Positions 38,944 to 54,869 of a stretch of 64,000 nt of DNA are shown one piece after another. The position numbers and the translations under genes are program-made. The notes below the pieces were generated by a model that saw only the letters and a list, made by a program, of their open reading frames with translations, was not told the origin of the DNA and did no database searches. Source of the stretch: a virus; the IMG/VR virus record IMGVR_UViG_3300034072_001378, positions 1 through 64,000 of that record. One strand, 5' to 3'. How positions within the stretch are numbered: position 1 is the first letter of the stretch; each line of letters begins with the position of its first letter.

Positions 38944-40419
38944 ATGGCAAATTTTTTAACAGAAGTTCTAAAGCCTTTTCTTAAAAATGATAAGAAACCA
39001 GAGCTTTCTAGCCAAGTTGAACCACAAAATATAATAAATGACCTTGGTTCAGATTATTATCATACATCAGGGAGTTTCTTTGATAGTACATCAAATTATT
39101 TAGGTAAATCAGAGCAAATTGATAATACATTCAGACAAGCAGAAAAGATTAAAAAATATCGTTCACTAGCAACAATACCAGATGTAAATGATGGTTTAGA
39201 TGAAATAACAAATGAAATTATTTTTTCTTTAGGTAAAGAACCACCAGTAAAAATTGATATAAATCAAGATAATAAACAACTTAAGGAAGCGATTGAAGAA
39301 AAATTTAAAGATATTCTTAAAAAGATGAATATTCGAAGAAATTTTTTTAGCATTGTAAAAAAATCATATATTGATGGTCAATTAAAAATTCACTTAGGAT
39401 ATAATGAAAAAACAAGAACAATTGATTCCATTAAAATGATCGACCCTTGTATGTTAGTATATAACCCAGAAACAGAATTATATAGATATGTACAAGATAA
39501 TTCTCAAATGTTCAGACAACAGGAAGAAATAACTTATTCAAGAGAAGAAATAGTTCATAGTGATTTTGGTTTATATGAAAATGGTATTATTTTAAGTTAT
39601 CTTGAATATGCTATAAAACCAGCAAATATGTTAAAAACATTAGAAGATTTACTTATTCCTATGAGATTTTCAAGAAGCATCTCAAGAAGAGTTTTCAATG
39701 TCGATATTGGGGACCTTCCGAATAAAAGAGGTCTTGAGGTTATGAATGAATATCAAATGAAATTCAAATATAAAAAATTCTATAATACGGAAACTGGAGA
39801 AGTAACAAATCAACAACATATCACAAGTATGGTTGAAGATTATTGGTTTGCTAATAGAAGTGGTGGTAAAGGAACAACAGTTGAAACTATTGATGAAACT
39901 GGAAATCTTGGAGAACTTGGGGATATTTTATATTTTTATAAGAAATTATATAAAAGTATGAAAATACCAATGTCTAGAATTTCAATGGATCCAGATTCAG
40001 ATGGAACATTTAATTATGAAAGCACTGAAACATCAAAAGAGGATTTAAAATTCTTTATGTTCATTAGTAGATGCAGAATTGTGTATTCTGAGGCTTTAAA
40101 AGAAATTTTAAAAAGAGAATGTATTTATTCTAAAATTATTAAAGATGAAAAAGAATGGGAGAGTATAGAAGATGATATCGATGTTTATTTTACAAATGAT
40201 AATACGTTTATAGATAAAATGAATCTTGATAATTTCATTAAAAGGGTTGAAATATTTACTGGTTTACAAGAACAACAGGGAAAATTATTTCCAGTCGAAA
40301 AAGTTCTTAAAGATATATTTAAAATGGATGATGAAGAAATTAAAGATAATTTTGAAGCTATTGAAAAAGAAAGATCAAATAAACTATATGCTAAATTTTA
40401 TGAAACACAAGATGAATAA
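38944..40419 (+). CDS. 20: Portal protein gp20
   Basis: 491 residues (T4: 524). The opening helix region E-Q-I-D-N-T-F-R-Q-A-E-K-I followed by Y-R-S-L-A-T-I-P-D-V-N-D-G-L-D-E-I is diagnostic for T4-type portals, as are S-I-K-M-I-D-P near 160 and M-S-R-I-S-M-D-P-D-S-D-G-T-F-N-Y. It forms the dodecameric ring through which DNA is packaged and on which the prohead is built. Start after AAAGGAATAAAA. Confidence 0.95.
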   Translation: MANFLTEVLKPFLKNDKKPELSSQVEPQNIINDLGSDYYHTSGSFFDSTSNYLGKSEQIDNTFRQAEKIKKYRSLATIPDVNDGLDEITNEIIFSLGKEPPVKIDINQDNKQLKEAIEEKFKDILKKMNIRRNFFSIVKKSYIDGQLKIHLGYNEKTRTIDSIKMIDPCMLVYNPETELYRYVQDNSQMFRQQEEITYSREEIVHSDFGLYENGIILSYLEYAIKPANMLKTLEDLLIPMRFSRSISRRVFNVDIGDLPNKRGLEVMNEYQMKFKYKKFYNTETGEVTNQQHITSMVEDYWFANRSGGKGTTVETIDETGNLGELGDILYFYKKLYKSMKIPMSRISMDPDSDGTFNYESTETSKEDLKFFMFISRCRIVYSEALKEILKRECIYSKIIKDEKEWESIEDDIDVYFTNDNTFIDKMNLDNFIKRVEIFTGLQEQQGKLFPVEKVLKDIFKMDDEEIKDNFEAIEKERSNKLYAKFYETQDE

Positions 40420-40950: not shown

Positions 40951-41340
40951 ATGCAAACATTTAGAGAATGGTTAGCAGAAAAAGAGTTAAATGAAGCAAA
41001 AGACCAAGATATTATAAAATTAGATAATATGGGTGATTTTATAATCGATAGTTCCAGAGGAGCTGAACATTATAATACTAAATTACAAATATATAAGAAA
41101 GTTTTTGGAAAGACTAAAGTTGAAGAAGGTCATTGGTTTAAAATAATACGTTATAAAGGATCAGATGGAAAATTTCGTAAAGAAGATTGTGTTATTAGAG
41201 ACTGGCTTGATGAAGACGCGGTAATCGTAAACAGTAAAGAAAGAAGTATTAGACCAACGTTGTATGTAAGAAATAAAGGCGCATACGAAAATGGAGAATT
41301 CCCTCAAAAATATAAAGAATTCGAATTCCCAAGAAAATAA
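40951..41340 (+). CDS. Putative internal head protein with capsid-targeting leader
   Basis: 129 residues starting MQTFREWLAE-KELNEA, with L-A-E and L-N-E gp21 sites. Leader DNA nearly identical to the 34120 gene. Body: beta-rich with W-F-K-I-I-R-Y-K-G and D-W-L-D-E-D-A-V-I-V-N, basic overall, no recognised family. The frame continues past the TAA for another 30 codons (see 41341). Confidence 0.75.
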   Translation: MQTFREWLAEKELNEAKDQDIIKLDNMGDFIIDSSRGAEHYNTKLQIYKKVFGKTKVEEGHWFKIIRYKGSDGKFRKEDCVIRDWLDEDAVIVNSKERSIRPTLYVRNKGAYENGEFPQKYKEFEFPRK

Positions 41341-41433
41341 TTAGATTTAAATGAAGCTTCTAAATTAGATGTAAATTTTTTAAAAGAAAATACTTGGTAT
41401 AAACCTAAAAAAACATATAAAATATTATTATAA
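41341..41433 (+). other. In-frame open extension after the 40951 stop
   Basis: Thirty sense codons follow the TAA in the same frame (LDLNEASKLDVN ... TWYKPKKTYKILL) and end at TAA 41431-41433. Composition is protein-like. It may be a remnant of a longer protein, a readthrough extension or chance. Confidence 0.3.
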
Positions 41434-41467
41434 TACCTTTGTCATAACGGTTAGATCTAAATAATTA

Positions 41468-41507
41468 ATCTTCAGACCGAAATGTCTATAAACTACTAAT
41501 TGAAGAT
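41468..41507 (+). ncRNA. Hairpin RNA motif, copy A
   Basis: Outer stem ATCTTCA/TGAAGAT, inner stem GAC/GTC, loop CGAAAT, then TATAAACTA before the outer stem closes. Confidence 0.5.
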
Positions 41508-41532
41508 ATACATTATATCATTTAAATTCTGA

Positions 41533-41574
41533 TTTAAGATATCAACTCCGAAATGAGTATAAACTAATCTTAAA
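41533..41574 (+). ncRNA. Hairpin RNA motif, copy B
   Basis: Outer stem TTTAAGAT/ATCTTAAA, inner stem CTC/GAG, loop CGAAAT, then TATAAACTA. Stems differ from copy A but still pair, while the loop and 3' linker are identical. Confidence 0.5.
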
Positions 41575-41744
41575 AAAATTTAGCTAAACTTTTTTGAAAA
41601 AGAACTAAAGCAGTACTAAATAGGTTCGTCCATTTAGTTTAATTAAGATTTCCAACTTAATTATAAATTGCAATGTTTTTCTGAGTGCAAAAGAACAAAG
41701 TTCTATGCATAAACAGAAAGTAAAGCTTAAAAAGGAGAATTAAA

Positions 41745-43172
41745 ATGGCAGAAATGTTGTCACCAGGCGTATATATCACGGAAATTGACGCAAGTCAAAT
41801 CGTACCAACAGTTTCAAATTCAGTTGCAGTGTTCAGTGGGAATTTCCATCAGGGTCCTGTTAATAAGTATCAAATTATAACATCAGTAGATGAATTAATT
41901 ACATATTATGGAAAACCTTCTAACACAAATTATAATGATTGGTATCAGGTTTACAATTACCTACAATATTCTAATAAATTGCTAATATCAAGAGCTGCTA
42001 ATACAGGTGGAACAAATACACCAATAAGTGGTGTTGTAACTTCAGAGGAAATCTTAGAAAACACAACAGATACATTTATTGTTGCAGAAACAACTGAAAT
42101 AAAAGCAAATGATCTTATTAGTTTAGGCGACGATAACCTTAATTTTTACTTTGTAAAATCAGTTACTACTGATTCATTGGCAGGAGAAACAACAATCGTT
42201 CTAGATAGACAAATCGAAACAGATTTTATTGCAGGAACAACAGTTAATTCTTATAAAGCACATATGAATGGTGTTGCAGAAGCTTTAAAAGAATCTTCAA
42301 CAGCAGTTATAACAGATGATATGTACTACGGTAAATATTTAGTTATTGAAAATTCAGATGATTATGAAATGAAAGAAACATCGTTAGCATTTGTTAACAA
42401 CGATTCTAAAATCAAAATTATCGCAAAAAATCCAGGTAAATGGTCAGAAAAATTAGAAATTGCAATTGCAAAACCTAGTGATTTTGGTGCAAGTAAAAAA
42501 GTATTTGATGGTATCTCTTTAGATGACCTTTATGAATACAGACCAACTGGTACTCAAGTAGGTATTGTTATAAGATATGAGGAAGAAATTAAAGAAATCT
42601 TTACAGTTGATTTTGATATGAACGCAAAAGATATTAATAACAAAAGTACTTATATTGAAACAGTTATTAATGGTTCAAGTTCTTACATTTATATTAAAGA
42701 TAATGTAGATGTTACAGAAGATATTAAATCATATATCTTTGATGAAGAAGGAACAATTGAATTAGTACTTGGAAGAGACTCAGATATTCAAGCTGATGAT
42801 TTATTAACAGCTTACGAAGTTTGGTCAAATAAAGAAGAAATTGAAATTGATATAATTATCGCGAATGAGTTAGATAGCGGTGTAAGTGCGAAAAACCTTG
42901 CAGAAGCTAGAAAAGACTGTATAGCGTTTGTTGGAGCTGGGTATTCTGACACTGTTGGTAAAAAAAGTTCAGATGCGGTTGCTAAACTTATTGAATGGAG
43001 AACTACTGGTTCTTTAAATTTTAATAGTATGTTTGTTGCAGCATTCGCGAACTATAAGTACCAATATGATAGATACTCGGACAAGAACAGATGGGTAAAC
43101 ATCGCTGGCGATTGTGCCGGATTAAGGTCGGCAACAAATACAGACAGAGCTTCGTGGTGGGCAAGTGCAGGT
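41745..43172 (+). CDS. 18: Tail sheath exon 1
   Basis: 476 codons ending A-S-A-G. The last base is the T that forms the U.G pair of intron 1. Without splicing the frame ends at TAG 43173-43175. Confidence 0.93.
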
Positions 43173-46100
43173 TAGAGATTTTCTAGGCCTGTTTATAAAA
43201 TTAGAAATTTTATAATGGAATTCTTTTAATTGCTGGAACATCCTTAGAGTTGAATTATAAGTTTGAAATTTATTTTAAATTTTAAACCCATGAACAAGAT
43301 TCAAATTGGACAATCAGCAGCTAAGACATATATTAAATATGTAAAGTTCAGAGACTATCCCAAAATGGGAGTACACTTATAGTTATAAAATTAAGTGGAA
43401 AAGGAGAACATCTTAAAAATTAAATGTTTAAGATGAAGATATAGTCCAATCTATATAGAAATATGTAGTTGTTTATAAACAACATATAAAGTAACGACTT
43501 ATATGAAATATAATGCTAGAAAGAGGACAAGTTAAAAATGTAATTAAACTTGCTTTCAATCCTGTACAGGCCATGAGAGATTAAAAAAAATTATATAAAT
43601 AAATTATATTTAATATAAGAAAGTCTCGGTAAAAAAGTAATTTTTTACAAAAATAAATTTATCTAATTGCTGGAACATCCTTAGAGTTGAATTATAAGTT
43701 TTAATTTAAAAATTAGAACCCATGAACAAGATTCAAATTGGACAATCAGCAGCTAAGAATTATTACATTTTTATATTAAAATTCGGAACTTTAATATAAG
43801 GAAAAATATATGAAACAAAAAATTAAACAATTAATAGAAAATTTTATACAAAATACCAACAATATTGCTACTTTAAATAGTAGAACATTATTTGTTCGAG
43901 AAAATATGGAAGAAATTAAGAAATTAACTGATTTCTTACCAGAAAATTCTAAAGTAAATGAAAGATTATATTTAATATATAATGAAATTTTTACTTTAGA
44001 AGAAATAAAATGTCCAATGTGTAATAACAATAAAAAATTTTATACATTTACAAGTGGATATAATCTTTGTTGTTCTCGATCTTGCGCGACTAAATATCAA
44101 CAAAACTTTTTAATTTCTAAAGAACAAAAAGAAATAATTTACAAAAAACGAACAGAAAATAACCGTAAAAAACCAAAAGAAGTTTTAAGGGCTGAAGCAG
44201 ACAAAAGAATAAAAACAACAATTGAAAGATATGGTGAGAATGCATTCTCACTTATAAGTAAAAAAGGTCATCAAACTAAATTAAAAAATGGTAATTATGT
44301 TGCGCCTTGGACAATTTTAAAAAATAATAACCCAATAAAATGGAAAGAAATGCATTTTAAAGCAGCTGAAACTATGAAAAATGACATAGATGAAAATGGT
44401 AATAATCATTATGATAGAGTTCATATAAAGAAATTAACAGTGTTAGATGAGAATGGATTAAATAAATCAAAGAGTACATCTAAAACACTTAAGTAATATA
44501 GACGAGAACGGGAATAATTATTACGAAAGAAGAAATTTAAAGAACTATGAAACAGGTGTTTGGACTAAACCAGAAGACAAAACATTATTAGAACAATATA
44601 AAATAAAGGTTTAAAAGTTCATGTATAAATTTAAGGAAGAAATTAAACAATTAAAAAATTTTGAATTAAGAGGTAGAACATCCGAAAATGGTTATCACTT
44701 GGATCATAAATTTTCCATTAAAGAAGGGTTTAACCAAAAGATTGATCCCGAAATAATTGGTCATATTTGTAATTTAGAAATGATTCCTGGTGAAATAAAT
44801 CAATCAAAAATAGAAAATGCAGTATAGAATTAAACTCATTAATAAATGATATAAATAATTACAACACCGAAAAGTGTATAAACTAAAATGTAATAATTAA
44901 AGTTCAACGACTATCACATAATGTGAGTACTGGGCAAGTGCCCGGGAAATGGTAGACACCCTTTGTTCCGAAATATTAAAGGGTGAAGATATAGTCTAAT
45001 CTATATAGAAATATATAGCAGTGAAAACGATTTAAGTTTAACGAGCTTAAATGAATATAAATGTTCTTATACAAAAACGGGTTAAATCCAATTGTAAGCT
45101 TTCCTGCTCAGGGTACTGTGGTATGGGGGCAAAAGGTGCTTTTAGATAAAGCAAGTTCTTTTGACCGTATAAATGTGCGAGGTCTTTTTAATACTTTAGA
45201 AAGATCATTAGCAAAAATGGCTAAAATATTTGGCCCTTTCAGAAGAGATTCTGAAATGAAAAACCTTTTAATTGCTGGGAACTCTAAGTCTTATTGAAAA
45301 TAAGATATGACAATCAGCAGCCAAGGTTCAAATAGAAATTAATTTGAACAAGGTTCAACGACTATCCAGAGATGGAGTACACTCAAGTGAGTGGAAATGG
45401 AGGTTACCTATAAAGGTAAAGATATAGTCTGAACTGTTTAGAAATAAACAGCTAATTTTAAAAATTTTATATTTTAAAATAGATTTAAGTTTAACGAGCT
45501 TAAATAAACATATTTGAAGTATCAAGTAATGGAGTTTAACGACAACTTCACAAGAAACAGGATTATAAGCATGATTAAGCCGTTCTTGTCTTCGGTACAG
45601 GCTGGAAGAGGTATAGCCGACTTCTTGGTGATTAATCAATAGTCACCTTTTATTGGAAACAATAAAATAAAAAAGTTCTTTAATTGCTGGGAACTCTAAG
45701 TCTTATTGAAAATAAGATATGACAATCAGCAGCCAAGGTTCAATATTTTATATTTGAACAAGGTTCAACGACTATCCAGAGATGGAGTACACTCAAGTGA
45801 GTGGAAATGGGAACTAACCTTTGTCTCAAACTTTTAATTTAAAAGAAAGGTTAAAGATATAGTCTAGACTATATAGAAATATATAGCAGTGAAAACGGTT
45901 ATAGATTAACGACCTATAATGAATAAATCGATGTGATGAATCTAATAATACTCCAGATGTAATCTCGAGAAATCAATTAGTAGTAGATGAAATTTGTCTA
46001 CTATAAAGAACTCTAATTGCTGGAACATCCTTAGAGTCTAAATATAGATTCAAGTTTAAAAGAAATATTTTGTTTATAAACAAATAATATGCTTTTTAAA

Positions 46101-46433
46101 TTTGAATTGATGAACAAGTTTAGAATTGGACAATCAGCAGCCAAGGTTCAAATGAAAAATATTGAACAAGGTTCAACGACTATCCCATAACGGGAGTACA
46201 CTCAAGTGAGTGGAAATGGGTTCTATTTTATCTACTCTAACAAATGATAAAATAAAGATATAGTCTAGTCTTTATGGAAACATAAAGCAGTTTAATTAAA
46301 ACGCATTTAATAGTAACATATTAAATGGAATATAACGGTTTTCATAAAACCAAATTATGTTGCAGAATTTGTTCATCTTAAATTTACTAACGCAGGGACA
46401 AATAGTTTTGCGTCAGTAATTGGTGGGGCATAA
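41745..46433 (+). CDS. 18: Tail sheath protein gp18, gene split into six exons
   Basis: Exons: 41745-43172, 43516-43581, 45064-45222, 45517-45632, 45931-45988, 46338-46433. Joined they give 1923 bases, 640 residues (T4 gp18: 659). The N-terminus L-S-P-G-V-Y-I-T-E-I and N-Y-N-D-W-Y-Q-V-Y-N-Y-L-Q-Y, and the rejoined C-terminal third (A-G-L-E-R-G-Q, M-R-D-F-L-Y-K-N-G, F-D-R-I-N-V-R, M-A-K-Y-Q-V-M-E-F-N-D, L-V-I-C-D-E-S-N-N-T-P, V-D-V-F-I-K-P), follow T4 gp18 residue by residue. Every junction keeps frame. The protein forms the contractile sheath around the tube. All introns lie in the conserved final third. A second, uninterrupted sheath-like gene lies at 47836. Confidence 0.93.
43173..43515 (+). 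ncRNA. Group I intron 1 of the sheath gene
   Basis: 343 bases. P1: exon CAGGT pairs with GCCTG at 43187-43191, with a U.G pair at the splice site. Core elements: AATTGCTGGAAC (P), AATCAGCAGC (Q), GTTCAGAGACTATCC (R), AAGATATAGTC (S), with GACTA/TAGTC forming P7. Ends in G. No endonuclease gene. Subtype like the T4 IA2 introns. Confidence 0.92.
43516..43581 (+). CDS. 18: Tail sheath exon 2
   Basis: Exactly 22 codons, LERGQVKNVIKLAF then NPVQAMRD, matching the T4 gp18 N-R-G-Q-I-K-N-V-V-K-L-A-W-N-P segment. Confidence 0.92.
43810..44827 (+). pseudogene. HNH homing endonuclease, inactivated
   Basis: Intact to 44496: zinc pair C68-x-x-C71 and C88-x-x-x-C92, then N-N-P-I-K-W-K type repeats. At 44490 one extra A shifts the frame. 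The same protein continues from 44492 (SNIDENGNNYYE ... WTKPEDKTLLEQ), is stopped by TAA at 44612-44614 where a codon for tyrosine would fit, and resumes to 44827 with the H-N-H region Y-H-L-D-H-K-F-S-I-K-E-G-F ... N-L-E-M-I-P. Two independent lesions, so the enzyme should be non-functional unless the bases are sequencing errors. ATG after AAGGAAAAATAT. Confidence 0.85.
44858..44894 (+). ncRNA. Hairpin RNA motif, copy C
   Basis: Outer stem ATTACA/TGTAAT, inner stem CAC/GTG, loop CGAAAA, then TATAAACTA. It lies in intron 2 just upstream of the R element. Same architecture as copies A and B with different stem sequences. Confidence 0.5.
45064..45222 (+). CDS. 18: Tail sheath exon 3
   Basis: 53 codons from FLYKNGLNPIVSFP to LAKMA. 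Contains the conserved F-D-R-I-N-V-R. A start-like ATG at 45061 belongs to the intron, not to the protein. Confidence 0.92.
45223..45516 (+). ncRNA. Group I intron 3 of the sheath gene
   Basis: 294 bases. P1: GGCT with GGCC at 45232-45235, U.G at the splice site. Core P at 45270 (AATTGCTGGGAACTC), Q AATCAGCAGCCAAGG, R GTTCAACGACTATCC, S AAGATATAGTC. Nearly identical to intron 4 in P through R. Confidence 0.92.
45267..45331 (+). repeat. 65-bp intron repeat, copy 1
   Basis: The P-to-Q segment is identical to 45679-45743 in intron 4. The following R segment is also shared. Confidence 0.9.
45517..45632 (+). CDS. 18: Tail sheath exon 4
   Basis: 116 bases, KYQVMEFNDNFTRN to DFLV plus two bases of the split isoleucine codon. 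Confidence 0.92.
45633..45930 (+). ncRNA. Group I intron 4 of the sheath gene
   Basis: 298 bases. P1: GGTGAT with GTCACC at 45642-45647, six pairs ending U.G. All four core elements present, close copy of intron 3. Inserted within a codon (phase 2). Confidence 0.92.
45679..45743 (+). repeat. 65-bp intron repeat, copy 2
   Basis: Identical to 45267-45331. The two direct repeats flank exon 4. Confidence 0.9.
45931..45988 (+). CDS. 18: Tail sheath exon 5
   Basis: 58 bases encoding the rest of the isoleucine codon and CDESNNTPDVISRNQLVVD. Confidence 0.92.
45989..46337 (+). ncRNA. Group I intron 5 of the sheath gene
   Basis: 349 bases. P1: GTAGAT with GTCTAC at 45996-46001, six pairs ending U.G, which fixes the 5' site. 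Core P at about 46017 (AATTGCTGGAACATCC, like introns 1 and 2), Q AATCAGCAGCCAAGG, R GTTCAACGACTATCC, S AAGATATAGTC. No endonuclease gene. Confidence 0.92.
46338..46433 (+). CDS. 18: Tail sheath exon 6
   Basis: 31 codons and stop, VFIKPNYVAEFVHLKF to ASVIGGA, the T4 gp18 C-terminal strands. Confidence 0.92.
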   Translation, partial: VFIKPNYVAEFVHLKFTNAGTNSFASVIGGA

Positions 46434-47041: not shown

Positions 47042-47830
47042 ATGGCTAATGTAGTACAAACAATGATACACAATGCTTTGGGTGATGGTGCTAGAAGTAC
47101 AAAATTTGAATGTTATATAGGGTTAGATACTTTTGGAGCTGGATCAAAAACAATTAGTACAATGGTTAAAACTGCTTCATATCCAAGTAAATCACATGAT
47201 GTAATAGATTTTAAGTTCAAAGGTAGAAATATTCCTTTAAGAGGGCAAGTAAAATATGAACAAACTTGGACTTGTAATTTCTATATGGATGAATCTCATA
47301 CATTAAAAAAAGCGTTTGAAGATGCTATTGAAGCTTTAGATGAAGTTCACACATATGATGATCCAAATGGAACGGTTGCTAGACAACAGGGTAGAAATTC
47401 ATCTAGATATACAAATACAATAACAATAGTTCAATTAGATTTTGATGGTTCTCAATCTACCGCAATTTATACATTGTATAATGCATTTCCTAAAAATATA
47501 ACTCAAATAGATATAGATTATTCAGAAGTTGGGAAAATTTTAGAATTCTCGGTTGAGTTTGCTTATTCTCATTTTGATATGCAAGTAGTAAAAGCACCTG
47601 ATGGTTCTTTTATAGATGGAATAAAAGGCAGATTTTTAGGTGCTGTTGAAGGATTAATACAAAAAGGTAAGGATGCCGCGGCTGCCGCAATTGGGGATTT
47701 AATAAGTTCAGCAAAAGATTATGTAATGGCTAATGGCGCTGGTGATATTTTTGGAGCTATTGGTTCAGGAATAGATTCTGCATTACTTTCATTGGAACAA
47801 ATTGATTTTAATCCAAGTTCTATGTGGTAA
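47042..47830 (+). CDS. Tail-tube-like protein (gp19 family), long version
   Basis: 262 residues. The first 180 follow the T4 gp19 fold: S-T-K-F-E-C-Y-I, A-S-Y-P-S-K, W-T-C-N-F-Y-M-D-E-S-H-T-L-K-K-A-F, L-Y-N-A-F-P-K-N-I. An 80-residue alanine/glycine-rich extension follows. T4 gp19 has 163 residues, so this is a tube relative with an added domain, perhaps a tube initiator or minor tube ring. Two further relatives are at 51671 and 53055. Confidence 0.8.
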   Translation: MANVVQTMIHNALGDGARSTKFECYIGLDTFGAGSKTISTMVKTASYPSKSHDVIDFKFKGRNIPLRGQVKYEQTWTCNFYMDESHTLKKAFEDAIEALDEVHTYDDPNGTVARQQGRNSSRYTNTITIVQLDFDGSQSTAIYTLYNAFPKNITQIDIDYSEVGKILEFSVEFAYSHFDMQVVKAPDGSFIDGIKGRFLGAVEGLIQKGKDAAAAAIGDLISSAKDYVMANGAGDIFGAIGSGIDSALLSLEQIDFNPSSMW

Positions 47831-47835
47831 TTATT

Positions 47836-49341
47836 ATGACAGAAAGCACAAGCATTAAAACAATAGAATCTCCAGGAATTTTAATTTCTGAATCAAATTT
47901 TATACCTAATAATTATATAAACCCATCATTAAATGTTGCTGCATTTGTTGGAGAATTTGAGAAAGGGCCTATAAACGAACCAATTTTAATAACTTCGGCA
48001 CTACAATTTAAGTTAATTTTTGGAAGAGCAACAGAAATAAACTATAATGACTGGTATCAAGTTTATAACTATTTACAATACGGAACTCCTAGAATATTTG
48101 TGTGTAGAAGTGCAGGCACAACACAAATAAAAGCAAATAATAATGGTAATATTGCAAATACTCCTGGTTCTTGGGGAAATATTTTAACAGTTGAAATATA
48201 TTATAAAACAAATTTAACAAATACTATTAGAGATATCTTTGGTTTACTTGATATAGAACAAGAAAATAACTTTAAAAATTATTTTGTAATTATTAGAAGA
48301 AAAGATATAATTGTTGAACAATATAATATTGACACTCCCGAAGAACTAAATTCTAATTATTTAGAAAGTATAAATTTGGAAGAAGGAATATTTAAACTTG
48401 AAAATGGTTATACCGATTCACCAAAAGAAGAAGATATTTCAGAAAGTTTAGAATTATTTTCTAAAGAAAATTATGATATTGATATTTTGATTGCTTCTGA
48501 ATATTTTAATAATGAAAACATAAAATTAGCAGAAAGTAGAAAAGATTGTGTTGTTTTTATGGGTGTACCTAGAAGATTTATTTATTTTTTAGTTATTAAT
48601 GGATTAATATTAACAACAGAAGATGGAACAAAAATTGCTTCAAAAATTAAAAATTTAAAATTAACTATAACTGATTCAGATATTAAAGATATAAAACAAT
48701 ATATTTCTAAAATGCAAAAAAGTTCATATGCTTTTTGTGTTTTTGGTTTTAAAGTACAGTTTGATGAGTTTACTGGAAAAAATAGAGTAATAAATACAAT
48801 AGGCGATATAGCAGGTTTAAAATCTTCTGCAGCTTTAATAAATCCTTGGAGCATTGGAGCAGGTATTGAAAGAGGAACTTTAAAGAATTTTGAGAGATTC
48901 ACAATGCTATTAAAGAAATCAGATAAAGAAGATTTATATAAGATGGGAGTTAATACATTAGAAAATAATGTTCTTATGTCTCAAAAACTTTTTGTTGATG
49001 AAACATTTAGTACACAAAAATTACATCAAAGAAATATCTATAATTATTTAAAAAGAGCATCAGAGAAAATAATTAATAGATATATATTTAATCCAAATGA
49101 AAGGGCATTAAGACAACAGTTAGCATTTGAACTAAAAAAATTATTAGAAGATGTTAAAGCTAGTAGAGGTATTGAAGCAGGCAAGGTTGTTGTTACGGTT
49201 GATTCTGCAAATATAGAAGTGAATAATATAAATATAAATATTTACATAAAAATGGTTAATATTTCTGAAATTGTGAAAGTGAACTTTATAAATGCAGGCA
49301 CAAGAAATCTTTCAGAAATAGTACAAACTAAGGAGATATAA
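47836..49341 (+). CDS. Second tail-sheath-like protein
   Basis: 501 residues, uninterrupted paralogue of gp18. Shared blocks: S-P-G-I-L-I-S-E, N-Y-N-D-W-Y-Q-V-Y-N-Y-L-Q-Y-G, the P-G-S-W-G-N loop and a C-terminal third with G-I-E-R-G-T-L-K. About 140 residues shorter, missing part of the protruding domains. Start taken at ATG 47836. A GTG at 47824 is possible but lies in the previous gene. It may form a specialised end ring of the sheath. Inference only. Confidence 0.8.
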   Translation: MTESTSIKTIESPGILISESNFIPNNYINPSLNVAAFVGEFEKGPINEPILITSALQFKLIFGRATEINYNDWYQVYNYLQYGTPRIFVCRSAGTTQIKANNNGNIANTPGSWGNILTVEIYYKTNLTNTIRDIFGLLDIEQENNFKNYFVIIRRKDIIVEQYNIDTPEELNSNYLESINLEEGIFKLENGYTDSPKEEDISESLELFSKENYDIDILIASEYFNNENIKLAESRKDCVVFMGVPRRFIYFLVINGLILTTEDGTKIASKIKNLKLTITDSDIKDIKQYISKMQKSSYAFCVFGFKVQFDEFTGKNRVINTIGDIAGLKSSAALINPWSIGAGIERGTLKNFERFTMLLKKSDKEDLYKMGVNTLENNVLMSQKLFVDETFSTQKLHQRNIYNYLKRASEKIINRYIFNPNERALRQQLAFELKKLLEDVKASRGIEAGKVVVTVDSANIEVNNININIYIKMVNISEIVKVNFINAGTRNLSEIVQTKEI

Positions 49342-53690: not shown

Positions 53691-54869
53691 ATGAAAAAGA
53701 AAAAATATCATTATGTTTATAGAATAACAAATAAAATTGAAAAGAAGCATTATATAGGTGTTAGAAGTTGTAATATTGACCCATATTTAGATTTAGGTAA
53801 AGAATATAAAGGAACTAGTTTAGATTCAGATTTTGTTAAAGATCAGAATGAAAATCCCCAAAATTATATATATCAAATTTTGGATTTTTTTGAGAATAGA
53901 AAAGATGCAATAAAAAGAGAAATGTACTTACACGAAATTTATAAAGTTAATTTAAATGAATCTTTTTATAATATTCGCAAACAAGGTAGTACTAAATGGG
54001 ATAACACAGGAAATAAAAAAATTGCCAAAAAAATTAGTATCGCGAATAAAGGTAGAATTGTAATTAATAATGGCGAAGTTAAAAAACATATAAAACCCGA
54101 AGAATTTGAAAGATATTTGCAAGATGGATGGATAAAGGGTGGTGTATCTCCATCACCTGAAGTAATACTGAAAATGAGTATATCTAATTCAGATACAATA
54201 TATATGAATAATAATATAATTGAGATAAGATTAGAACAAAATGAGATTGACGAATATCGTATTCTTGGTTTTACTGAAGGTAGATTACCAATGAAAGATA
54301 TACAAAAATTTCAATTATTTTTATCTCACACAGGTAAAACTTTATCAGAAGAACATAAAGAAAACATCGGCATTGGTGGTAAAGGTATTAAAAAATCAGA
54401 ACAAATGAAAATGAAATTATCTGAAACCAGAACAGGAATGATTTATATAAATAATGGAGAAAAAGAGAAGATAATACAACCATACGATTTACAAACTTAT
54501 ATTTATGATGGTTGGGAAGAAGGTAAATTACCAATGCCGGATAGTCATAAACAAGCAATTAGTGATGCTTCATTTGGCAAACCCGGTACAACAACTGGGA
54601 AAATATCGGTTGTTAAGAATAATATCGTAAAGTATATTTCACAATCTGAATTAGATGATTATTTATCGGATGGATGGGTACAAGGTGGTAAAAAGTTTTC
54701 ACAAGAAACTAAAGAAAAGTTAAAAGGTAGAAAGGGGTCAACTGCTGGAAGAATAGGTATAAATAATAATATAAAGAACAAATATATTAATGCTGATGAA
54801 TTAGATAAATATTTAAAAGAAGGTTGGGTAAAAGGATTAAAATCCAAAAAGAAGGTAACCAATGGCTAA
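53691..54869 (+). CDS. GIY-YIG homing endonuclease (Seg-like), free-standing
   Basis: 392 residues. GIY-YIG domain at the N-terminus: Y8-V-Y10 ... Y21-I-G23-V-R25, with a later glutamate (KREMYLHE). It is followed by four DNA-contact repeats of the NUMOD type, each with I-x-N-N-G/N ... Y-L-x-D/E-G-W-x-x-G near residues 124-150, 250-275, 305-330 and 355-385. No intron core surrounds it, so it is a free-standing homing gene like T4 segA-E, inserted between tail tube and head genes. It overlaps the next gene by eight bases. Confidence 0.88.
   Translation: MKKKKYHYVYRITNKIEKKHYIGVRSCNIDPYLDLGKEYKGTSLDSDFVKDQNENPQNYIYQILDFFENRKDAIKREMYLHEIYKVNLNESFYNIRKQGSTKWDNTGNKKIAKKISIANKGRIVINNGEVKKHIKPEEFERYLQDGWIKGGVSPSPEVILKMSISNSDTIYMNNNIIEIRLEQNEIDEYRILGFTEGRLPMKDIQKFQLFLSHTGKTLSEEHKENIGIGGKGIKKSEQMKMKLSETRTGMIYINNGEKEKIIQPYDLQTYIYDGWEEGKLPMPDSHKQAISDASFGKPGTTTGKISVVKNNIVKYISQSELDDYLSDGWVQGGKKFSQETKEKLKGRKGSTAGRIGINNNIKNKYINADELDKYLKEGWVKGLKSKKKVTNG

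Follow-up and report, generated by a model that had tools for sequence, protein, structure and literature searches.

Five group I introns with mosaic cores in the gp18-type tail sheath gene of a T4-like phage

A gp18-type tail sheath gene in the 64,000-nucleotide stretch analysed here (the window; positions 1 to 64,000 of IMG/VR virus record IMGVR_UViG_3300034072_001378, which comprises 127,065 bases) is interrupted by five group I introns, an identification supported by covariance-model matches, by the colinear order of the exons, by pairing at the splice sites and by another contig with the same array. The introns, their boundaries, the sites that they share with other phages and the mosaic of their cores are read directly from sequence, and it is very probable that all five are removed by splicing. 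When 343, 1482, 294, 298 and 349 nt are taken out of 41745-46433, a coding sequence of 1923 nt remains that specifies 640 residues without internal stops; the intron lengths and positions proposed in a preliminary description of this DNA were thereby reproduced exactly. The gene is preceded by the portal gene (38944-40419) and followed by the tail tube gene (47042-47830), an order resembling that of Vibrio phage Va1. The features of the locus and the interrupted sheath genes of other contigs are listed in Table 1.

Table 1. Features of the interrupted sheath locus (window coordinates) and sheath genes interrupted in other contigs (amino acid positions)
Feature	Position	Strand	Details
Exon 1	41745-43172	+	aa 1-476; 62.6% identical to Va1 sheath 1-485
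Intron 1	43173-43515	+	343 nt, no ORF; IGS 43187-43192; starts with in-frame TAG
Exon 2	43516-43581	+	aa 477-498, 66 nt; 77% identical to Va1 486-507
Intron 2	43582-45063	+	1482 nt; endonuclease ORF in P6 loop; IGS 43623-43627
Decayed homing endonuclease gene	43810-44824	+	34% identical to F379 ORF in same-site intron
Exon 3	45064-45222	+	aa 499-551, 159 nt; 73% to Va1 (tblastn)
Intron 3	45223-45516	+	294 nt; IGS 45232-45235
Exon 4	45517-45632	+	116 nt, codon phase 2 at end; 95% identical to Va1
Intron 4	45633-45930	+	298 nt; IGS 45642-45647
Exon 5	45931-45988	+	58 nt; 84% identical to Va1 600-618
Intron 5	45989-46337	+	349 nt, chimeric core; IGS 45996-46003
Exon 6	46338-46433	+	last 31 residues and stop codon; 75% identical to Va1 617-648
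Second sheath-like gene	47824-49341	+	505 aa, uninterrupted; phrog_23 tail sheath E=3.4e-39
L059	aa 590, 609		GIY-YIG ORF in first
G005/L139	aa 551		HNH-like ORF
G002/L174	aa 367, 512, 558		
G003/L184	aa about 10, 367, 531, 609		
G004/L178	aa about 503, 540, 558		
G006/L183	aa 531		
G007/L176	aa 540		
G008/L175	aa 540 (contig end)		

The six exons are colinear with the intact, intron-free Va1 sheath of 648 residues, at 62-95% identity (tblastn, Va1 query), and the spliced protein as a whole is 70% identical to it. Exon 1 is nearest to Va1-type Vibrio phages (61-63% identity) and next to Campylobacter phages (38-40%). After intron removal, homology to the T4 gp18 tail sheath and its conserved C-terminal domain were both found: the spliced product matches PF17482 (45.1 bits) and PF04984 (37.4 bits), each above cut-off, and exon 1 by itself is without these Pfam sheath domains. 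Every insertion contains an early in-frame stop, which comes at once in introns 1 and 2; translation of the unspliced message would therefore end after 476 residues and leave out the C-terminal domain. Upstream of the gene, about 400 nt without a recognised gene (41341-41744) separate an ORF ending at 41340 from the sheath start. The motif GAAANGNNTATAAACTA is found in three plus-strand copies (41479-41495, 41550-41566 and 44869-44885; 0.01 expected), two of them in the sheath gene's untranslated leader, inside this stretch, and one in intron 2 just past the endonuclease remnant; it is possibly late-promoter-like.

With the Rfam group I model RF00028 (gathering cut-off 50 bits), all five insertions were matched, four of them above the cut-off: intron 1 with 72.5 bits (43163-43468), intron 3 with 108.1 bits (45213-45451), intron 4 with 97.4 bits (45623-45886) and intron 5 with 61.0 bits (45951-46287). 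Intron 2, which is split by its ORF, scored 44.8 bits, below gathering, at E=3.7e-9 (44850-45018). Exact boundaries were placed by protein alignment together with the U that precedes and the G that ends each intron, and the terminal G described earlier is present in all five. Helices P4, P6, P7, P8 and P9 were recognised in every intron and in three introns from outside the array. P6, P8 and P9 are kept through different paired sequences across the introns, and P7 in contig L059 shows the paired change GACUA/UAGUC to GACCA/UGGUC. The claimed P1 helix with U.G at the splice site stood for all five introns, while its pair counts, given as 5, 5, 4, 6 and 6, were revised to 6, 5, 4, 6 and 8-9. The five guide sequences differ from one another, and pairing with the intron's own exon is maximal or equal-best in each case; for intron 1, one other exon pairs equally well when the offset is changed. 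In addition, P10 pairing of the intron sequence 5' of the guide with the own 3' exon amounts to 8, 8, 6, 4 and 5 pairs in introns 1-5, the own exon being best in all five; the P10 of introns 1-3 each beats about 95-98% of random sites, and the weak P10 of intron 4 (4 bp) is equalled by 28% of them. Outside the window, positions 83509-83637 of the genome (L019:19509-19637) match RF03022, a phage diversity-generating retroelement RNA, with 43 bits (cut-off 50) and E=4e-4.

Inteins are reported in conserved genes of other phages (PMC3322345, PMC7886860), which gives some footing to a reading of the insertions as inteins or group II introns. The early in-frame stop in every insertion, however, means that none can be an intein, and Rfam returned group I matches only, with no group II intron covariance match in the 64 kb at E up to 0.1; this reading was rejected as having next to no probability. 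An origin of the insertions in assembly error was likewise ruled out by a twin, a separate 12-kb contig (L004) with the same array, identical over 11,836 bases except for one base outside the sheath gene. In the mechanism proposed for the five group I introns, all carried by a late gene for a gp18-type contractile tail sheath, each intron would fold and then be attacked by an external guanosine at the 5' splice site that its own U.G pair marks, and the exons would be joined at each intron's terminal G. Five independent splicing reactions would lead to a single 1923-nt message and the full-length sheath. Exons 2 and 3 each, and exons 4 and 5 combined, have lengths divisible by three, so that transcripts skipping them would keep the reading frame. 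From their anatomy, and by analogy with experimentally tested phage introns of the same class, we infer that the introns splice, also in infected cells. For instance, splicing is reported for eight of nine tested genes in Bastillevirinae (PMC11878797), and of 76 introns predicted in Jug phages, 37 are reported to have metatranscriptome support (PMC12363816).

The five insertions had all been described as non-coding, which does not hold for the second, since it contains a broken HNH-type homing endonuclease gene. The N-terminal part of this gene (43810-44493) is zinc-finger-like and is followed by a frameshift (at about 44490); the C-terminal part is HNH-like, carries an in-frame TAA at 44612-44614 and matches phrog_5104, a family of unknown function (E=1.6e-20). 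Both lesions recur in the twin contig. Similarity of the intron 2 ORF was limited to phrog_5104 and the ORF of the same-site intron of F379, and the ORF 34% identical to the N-terminal part is found in Campylobacter phages F379, CP21 and CJLB-13. No intact HNH domain lies in a single reading frame of the intron 2 ORF, which gave no Pfam HNH match, and IMG/VR searches with this endonuclease and with that of L059 found relatives in their own contigs only. Elsewhere in the window, a 392-aa ORF (53691-54869) shows a sub-threshold GIY-YIG match (18.3 bits, 53706-53936) that is unrelated to the L059 intron endonuclease. This ORF is possibly a freestanding homing endonuclease; it was set aside as a freestanding partner of the array because the match is only sub-threshold, and the search for freestanding endonucleases gave no PF13392 match.

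The earlier suggestion that sheath production depends on five splicing events is qualified by an intact 505-residue paralogue directly after the tail tube gene, 1.4 kb downstream of the intron-bearing gene. This paralogue is a possible alternative sheath and could supply the virion; for Campylobacter phage IBB_35, three annotated sheath genes are reported, all detected in virions (PMC3322345). If the interrupted gene were a pseudogene in decay, its introns would now splice poorly and the downstream 505-aa sheath would have taken over, a reading in line with the intactness of the second gene, with the lack of an intact endonuclease in all five introns and with the cost that five splicing steps would impose. 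The exons speak against it, since exons 2-6 (495 nt spread over 2.9 kb) contain neither a stop nor a frameshift and are 85% identical to Va1. The third-position bias seen in the downstream exons is mostly a record of the period preceding the insertions. When exons 5 and 6 were compared across three phages, each with an intron at that junction, differences were found mainly at third codon positions, a pattern that fits ongoing selection on the joined protein. Furthermore, the core helices are intact in all five introns, and a primary sheath together with a second, divergent copy is also present in other contigs, for example L005. Decay of the gene is accordingly considered quite improbable, and the sheath encoded by the five-intron gene would still be in use.

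In other phages, too, the sheath gene has repeatedly been a target of introns. Interrupted sheath genes were found in eight other contigs and in several Campylobacter phages, at about a dozen sites; the contigs were obtained by an IMG/VR scan with the exon 3 peptide and tblastn, an earlier IMG/VR scan having given L059, and RF00028 detected at least one group I intron in each of the eight records except G008. The gene was uninterrupted in this region in 154 of 170 sheath loci with a match, and among annotated phages the C-terminal query matches for the most part at a single location in 2587 of 2626 records (60 of 60 sampled were unsplit), so that sheath introns are rare overall, yet concentrated in the sheath gene of some phages. 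At the site of intron 2, after aa 498, the sheath is interrupted at exactly the same position in Campylobacter phages F379, CP21, CJLB-13 and CC_R7; a related endonuclease lies inside the insertion of the first three and is absent from that of CC_R7 (626 nt). The site of intron 3 (aa 551) is occupied in G005 (L139/L279) by an intron with an HNH-like ORF, that of intron 4 (aa 590) in L059 by a GIY-YIG-bearing intron, and that of intron 5 (aa 609) by introns in L059 and G003. For the site of intron 1 (aa 476), occupation is tentatively assigned in G005, where the coding frame begins at aa 477 beside non-coding sequence that is truncated at the end of the contig and in which no group I core was seen; apart from this candidate, no occupied site 476 emerged when aa 434-498 served as query.

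Two further observations were made on these genes. The endonuclease at site 512 of G002 and the sheath gene are encoded on opposite strands (endonuclease L174 1888-2847, minus), which is unusual, and the endonuclease at site 476 of G005 is perhaps likewise on the opposite strand (L279 1-527). In F379 (L104; MT932329.1 106038-114685) and L106 (PQ092953.1), the Firehammervirus-type sheath is annotated as separate genes around aa 498, and its N-terminal part is also on a separate ORF. The insertion at aa 498 in these two records looks like an unannotated group I intron, and the annotation of the sheath as split genes is probably wrong in several Campylobacter phages.

The origin of the array was approached through the relationships among its introns. 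RF00028 found no match elsewhere in the 127-kb record, all five matches being in the sheath gene. Core DNA is 93% identical between introns 3 and 4 (149 nt) and 87% identical between introns 1 and 2 (120 nt), a closeness that no intron in 50,697 phage records equals; outside the array, intron 3 is matched at best with 70-76% identity over about 120 nt. A 23-mer of introns 3, 4 and 5 and a 25-mer of introns 1 and 2 are found, among IMG/VR contigs, elsewhere only in the twin. The confinement of the introns to one gene and the closeness of sister cores favour the main rival to homing followed by core exchange, namely local spread, in which a single founder would have spread within the gene, for example by reverse splicing into nearby RNA and recombination. 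The guide sequences, however, differ in all five introns, and same-site introns elsewhere carry their own endonucleases, of different families. Moreover, in a comparison of the 5' segment (P1 to P3) with 18 other introns, in which few same-site introns are represented (one or two for each site), the nearest relative of each of the four testable introns, 2-5, is the same-site intron of another phage, and this holds when the guide sequence is deleted. The chance of four such results in four is about 4e-5 by simple counting, which ignores relatedness and segment length. Local spread is on this evidence regarded as unlikely.

Other parts of the introns follow a different pattern. In P4-P5 of introns 1-4, the nearest relative is a sister intron (0.90, 1.00). 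Informative sites group introns 1, 2 and 5 against 3 and 4 through P4-P5, and introns 1 and 2 against 3, 4 and 5 through P6-P7, with groupings of 2 with 4 and of 2 with 3 near P9. A PHI-type permutation test among the five introns gave p = 0.0005 (the floor of 2000 permutations), a recombination signal that RNA structure covariation at neighbouring sites can inflate. Homing into separate sites, with cores exchanged afterwards inside the gene, is judged the probable course. The introns would have entered separate conserved sites by homing, through endonucleases of several families that were subsequently lost or broken in the array, and neighbouring introns would have recombined, swapping catalytic cores and retaining site-specific 5' ends; the order of these events is one that we infer. 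More broadly, in these T4-like phages the sheath gene may be an intron 'archipelago', in which about a dozen sites are repeatedly invaded by different endonuclease lineages and co-resident introns exchange cores while keeping site-specific 5' ends; the array would then undergo concerted evolution, as a small multigene family does, and could persist without endonucleases of its own; the chances of this wider picture appear evenly balanced.

Individually, the window introns are ordinary phage group I introns. The earlier remark that five in one structural gene is unusual agrees with the open-licence literature, in which published phage genes were found with at most three introns, and within which no reported phage gene seems to have as many introns as this sheath gene; no report of introns in a T4-like sheath gene was found in the available text of open-licence papers. 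Since a heavily made virion protein is interrupted, splicing must keep pace with late expression, and the same array offers a test of whether sheath output is gated by splicing. In addition, the shared sites and swapped cores constitute a natural system for testing concerted evolution of co-resident group I introns.

Several known systems are comparable. Three introns and an intein are reported in nrdE of Brochothrix phage A9 (PMC3653736), two or three introns in the DNA polymerase (pol) and terL genes of Bastillevirinae (PMC11878797), and three in Twort orf142 (title of Landthaler and Shub 1999, cited in PMC11878797). Each of these is likewise a conserved phage gene with more than one group I intron, and some of the introns carry endonucleases, whereas the present array has five introns with mosaic cores, and the gene that holds them encodes a virion structural protein of a T4-like phage. 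In Zeta crAss-like phages, the capsid gene is reported in five fragments with four interruptions (PMC7886860); it is likewise structural, with three of its four insertions described as carrying group I-type endonuclease domains and a dense intron load, but the gene and phage are unrelated, and here five introns lie in one gene with none elsewhere in the record. The group I introns of phiKZ and kayviruses show core DNA similarity of about 74-79% to the window introns and are located in other host genes. Closest in position are the Campylobacter Firehammervirus phages F379, CP21, CJLB-13 and CC_R7, which share the site after aa 498, a homologous endonuclease and a similar 5' end; their sheath gene, in contrast, has a single intron, at that site only, with the endonuclease in three phages and missing from the short intron of CC_R7.
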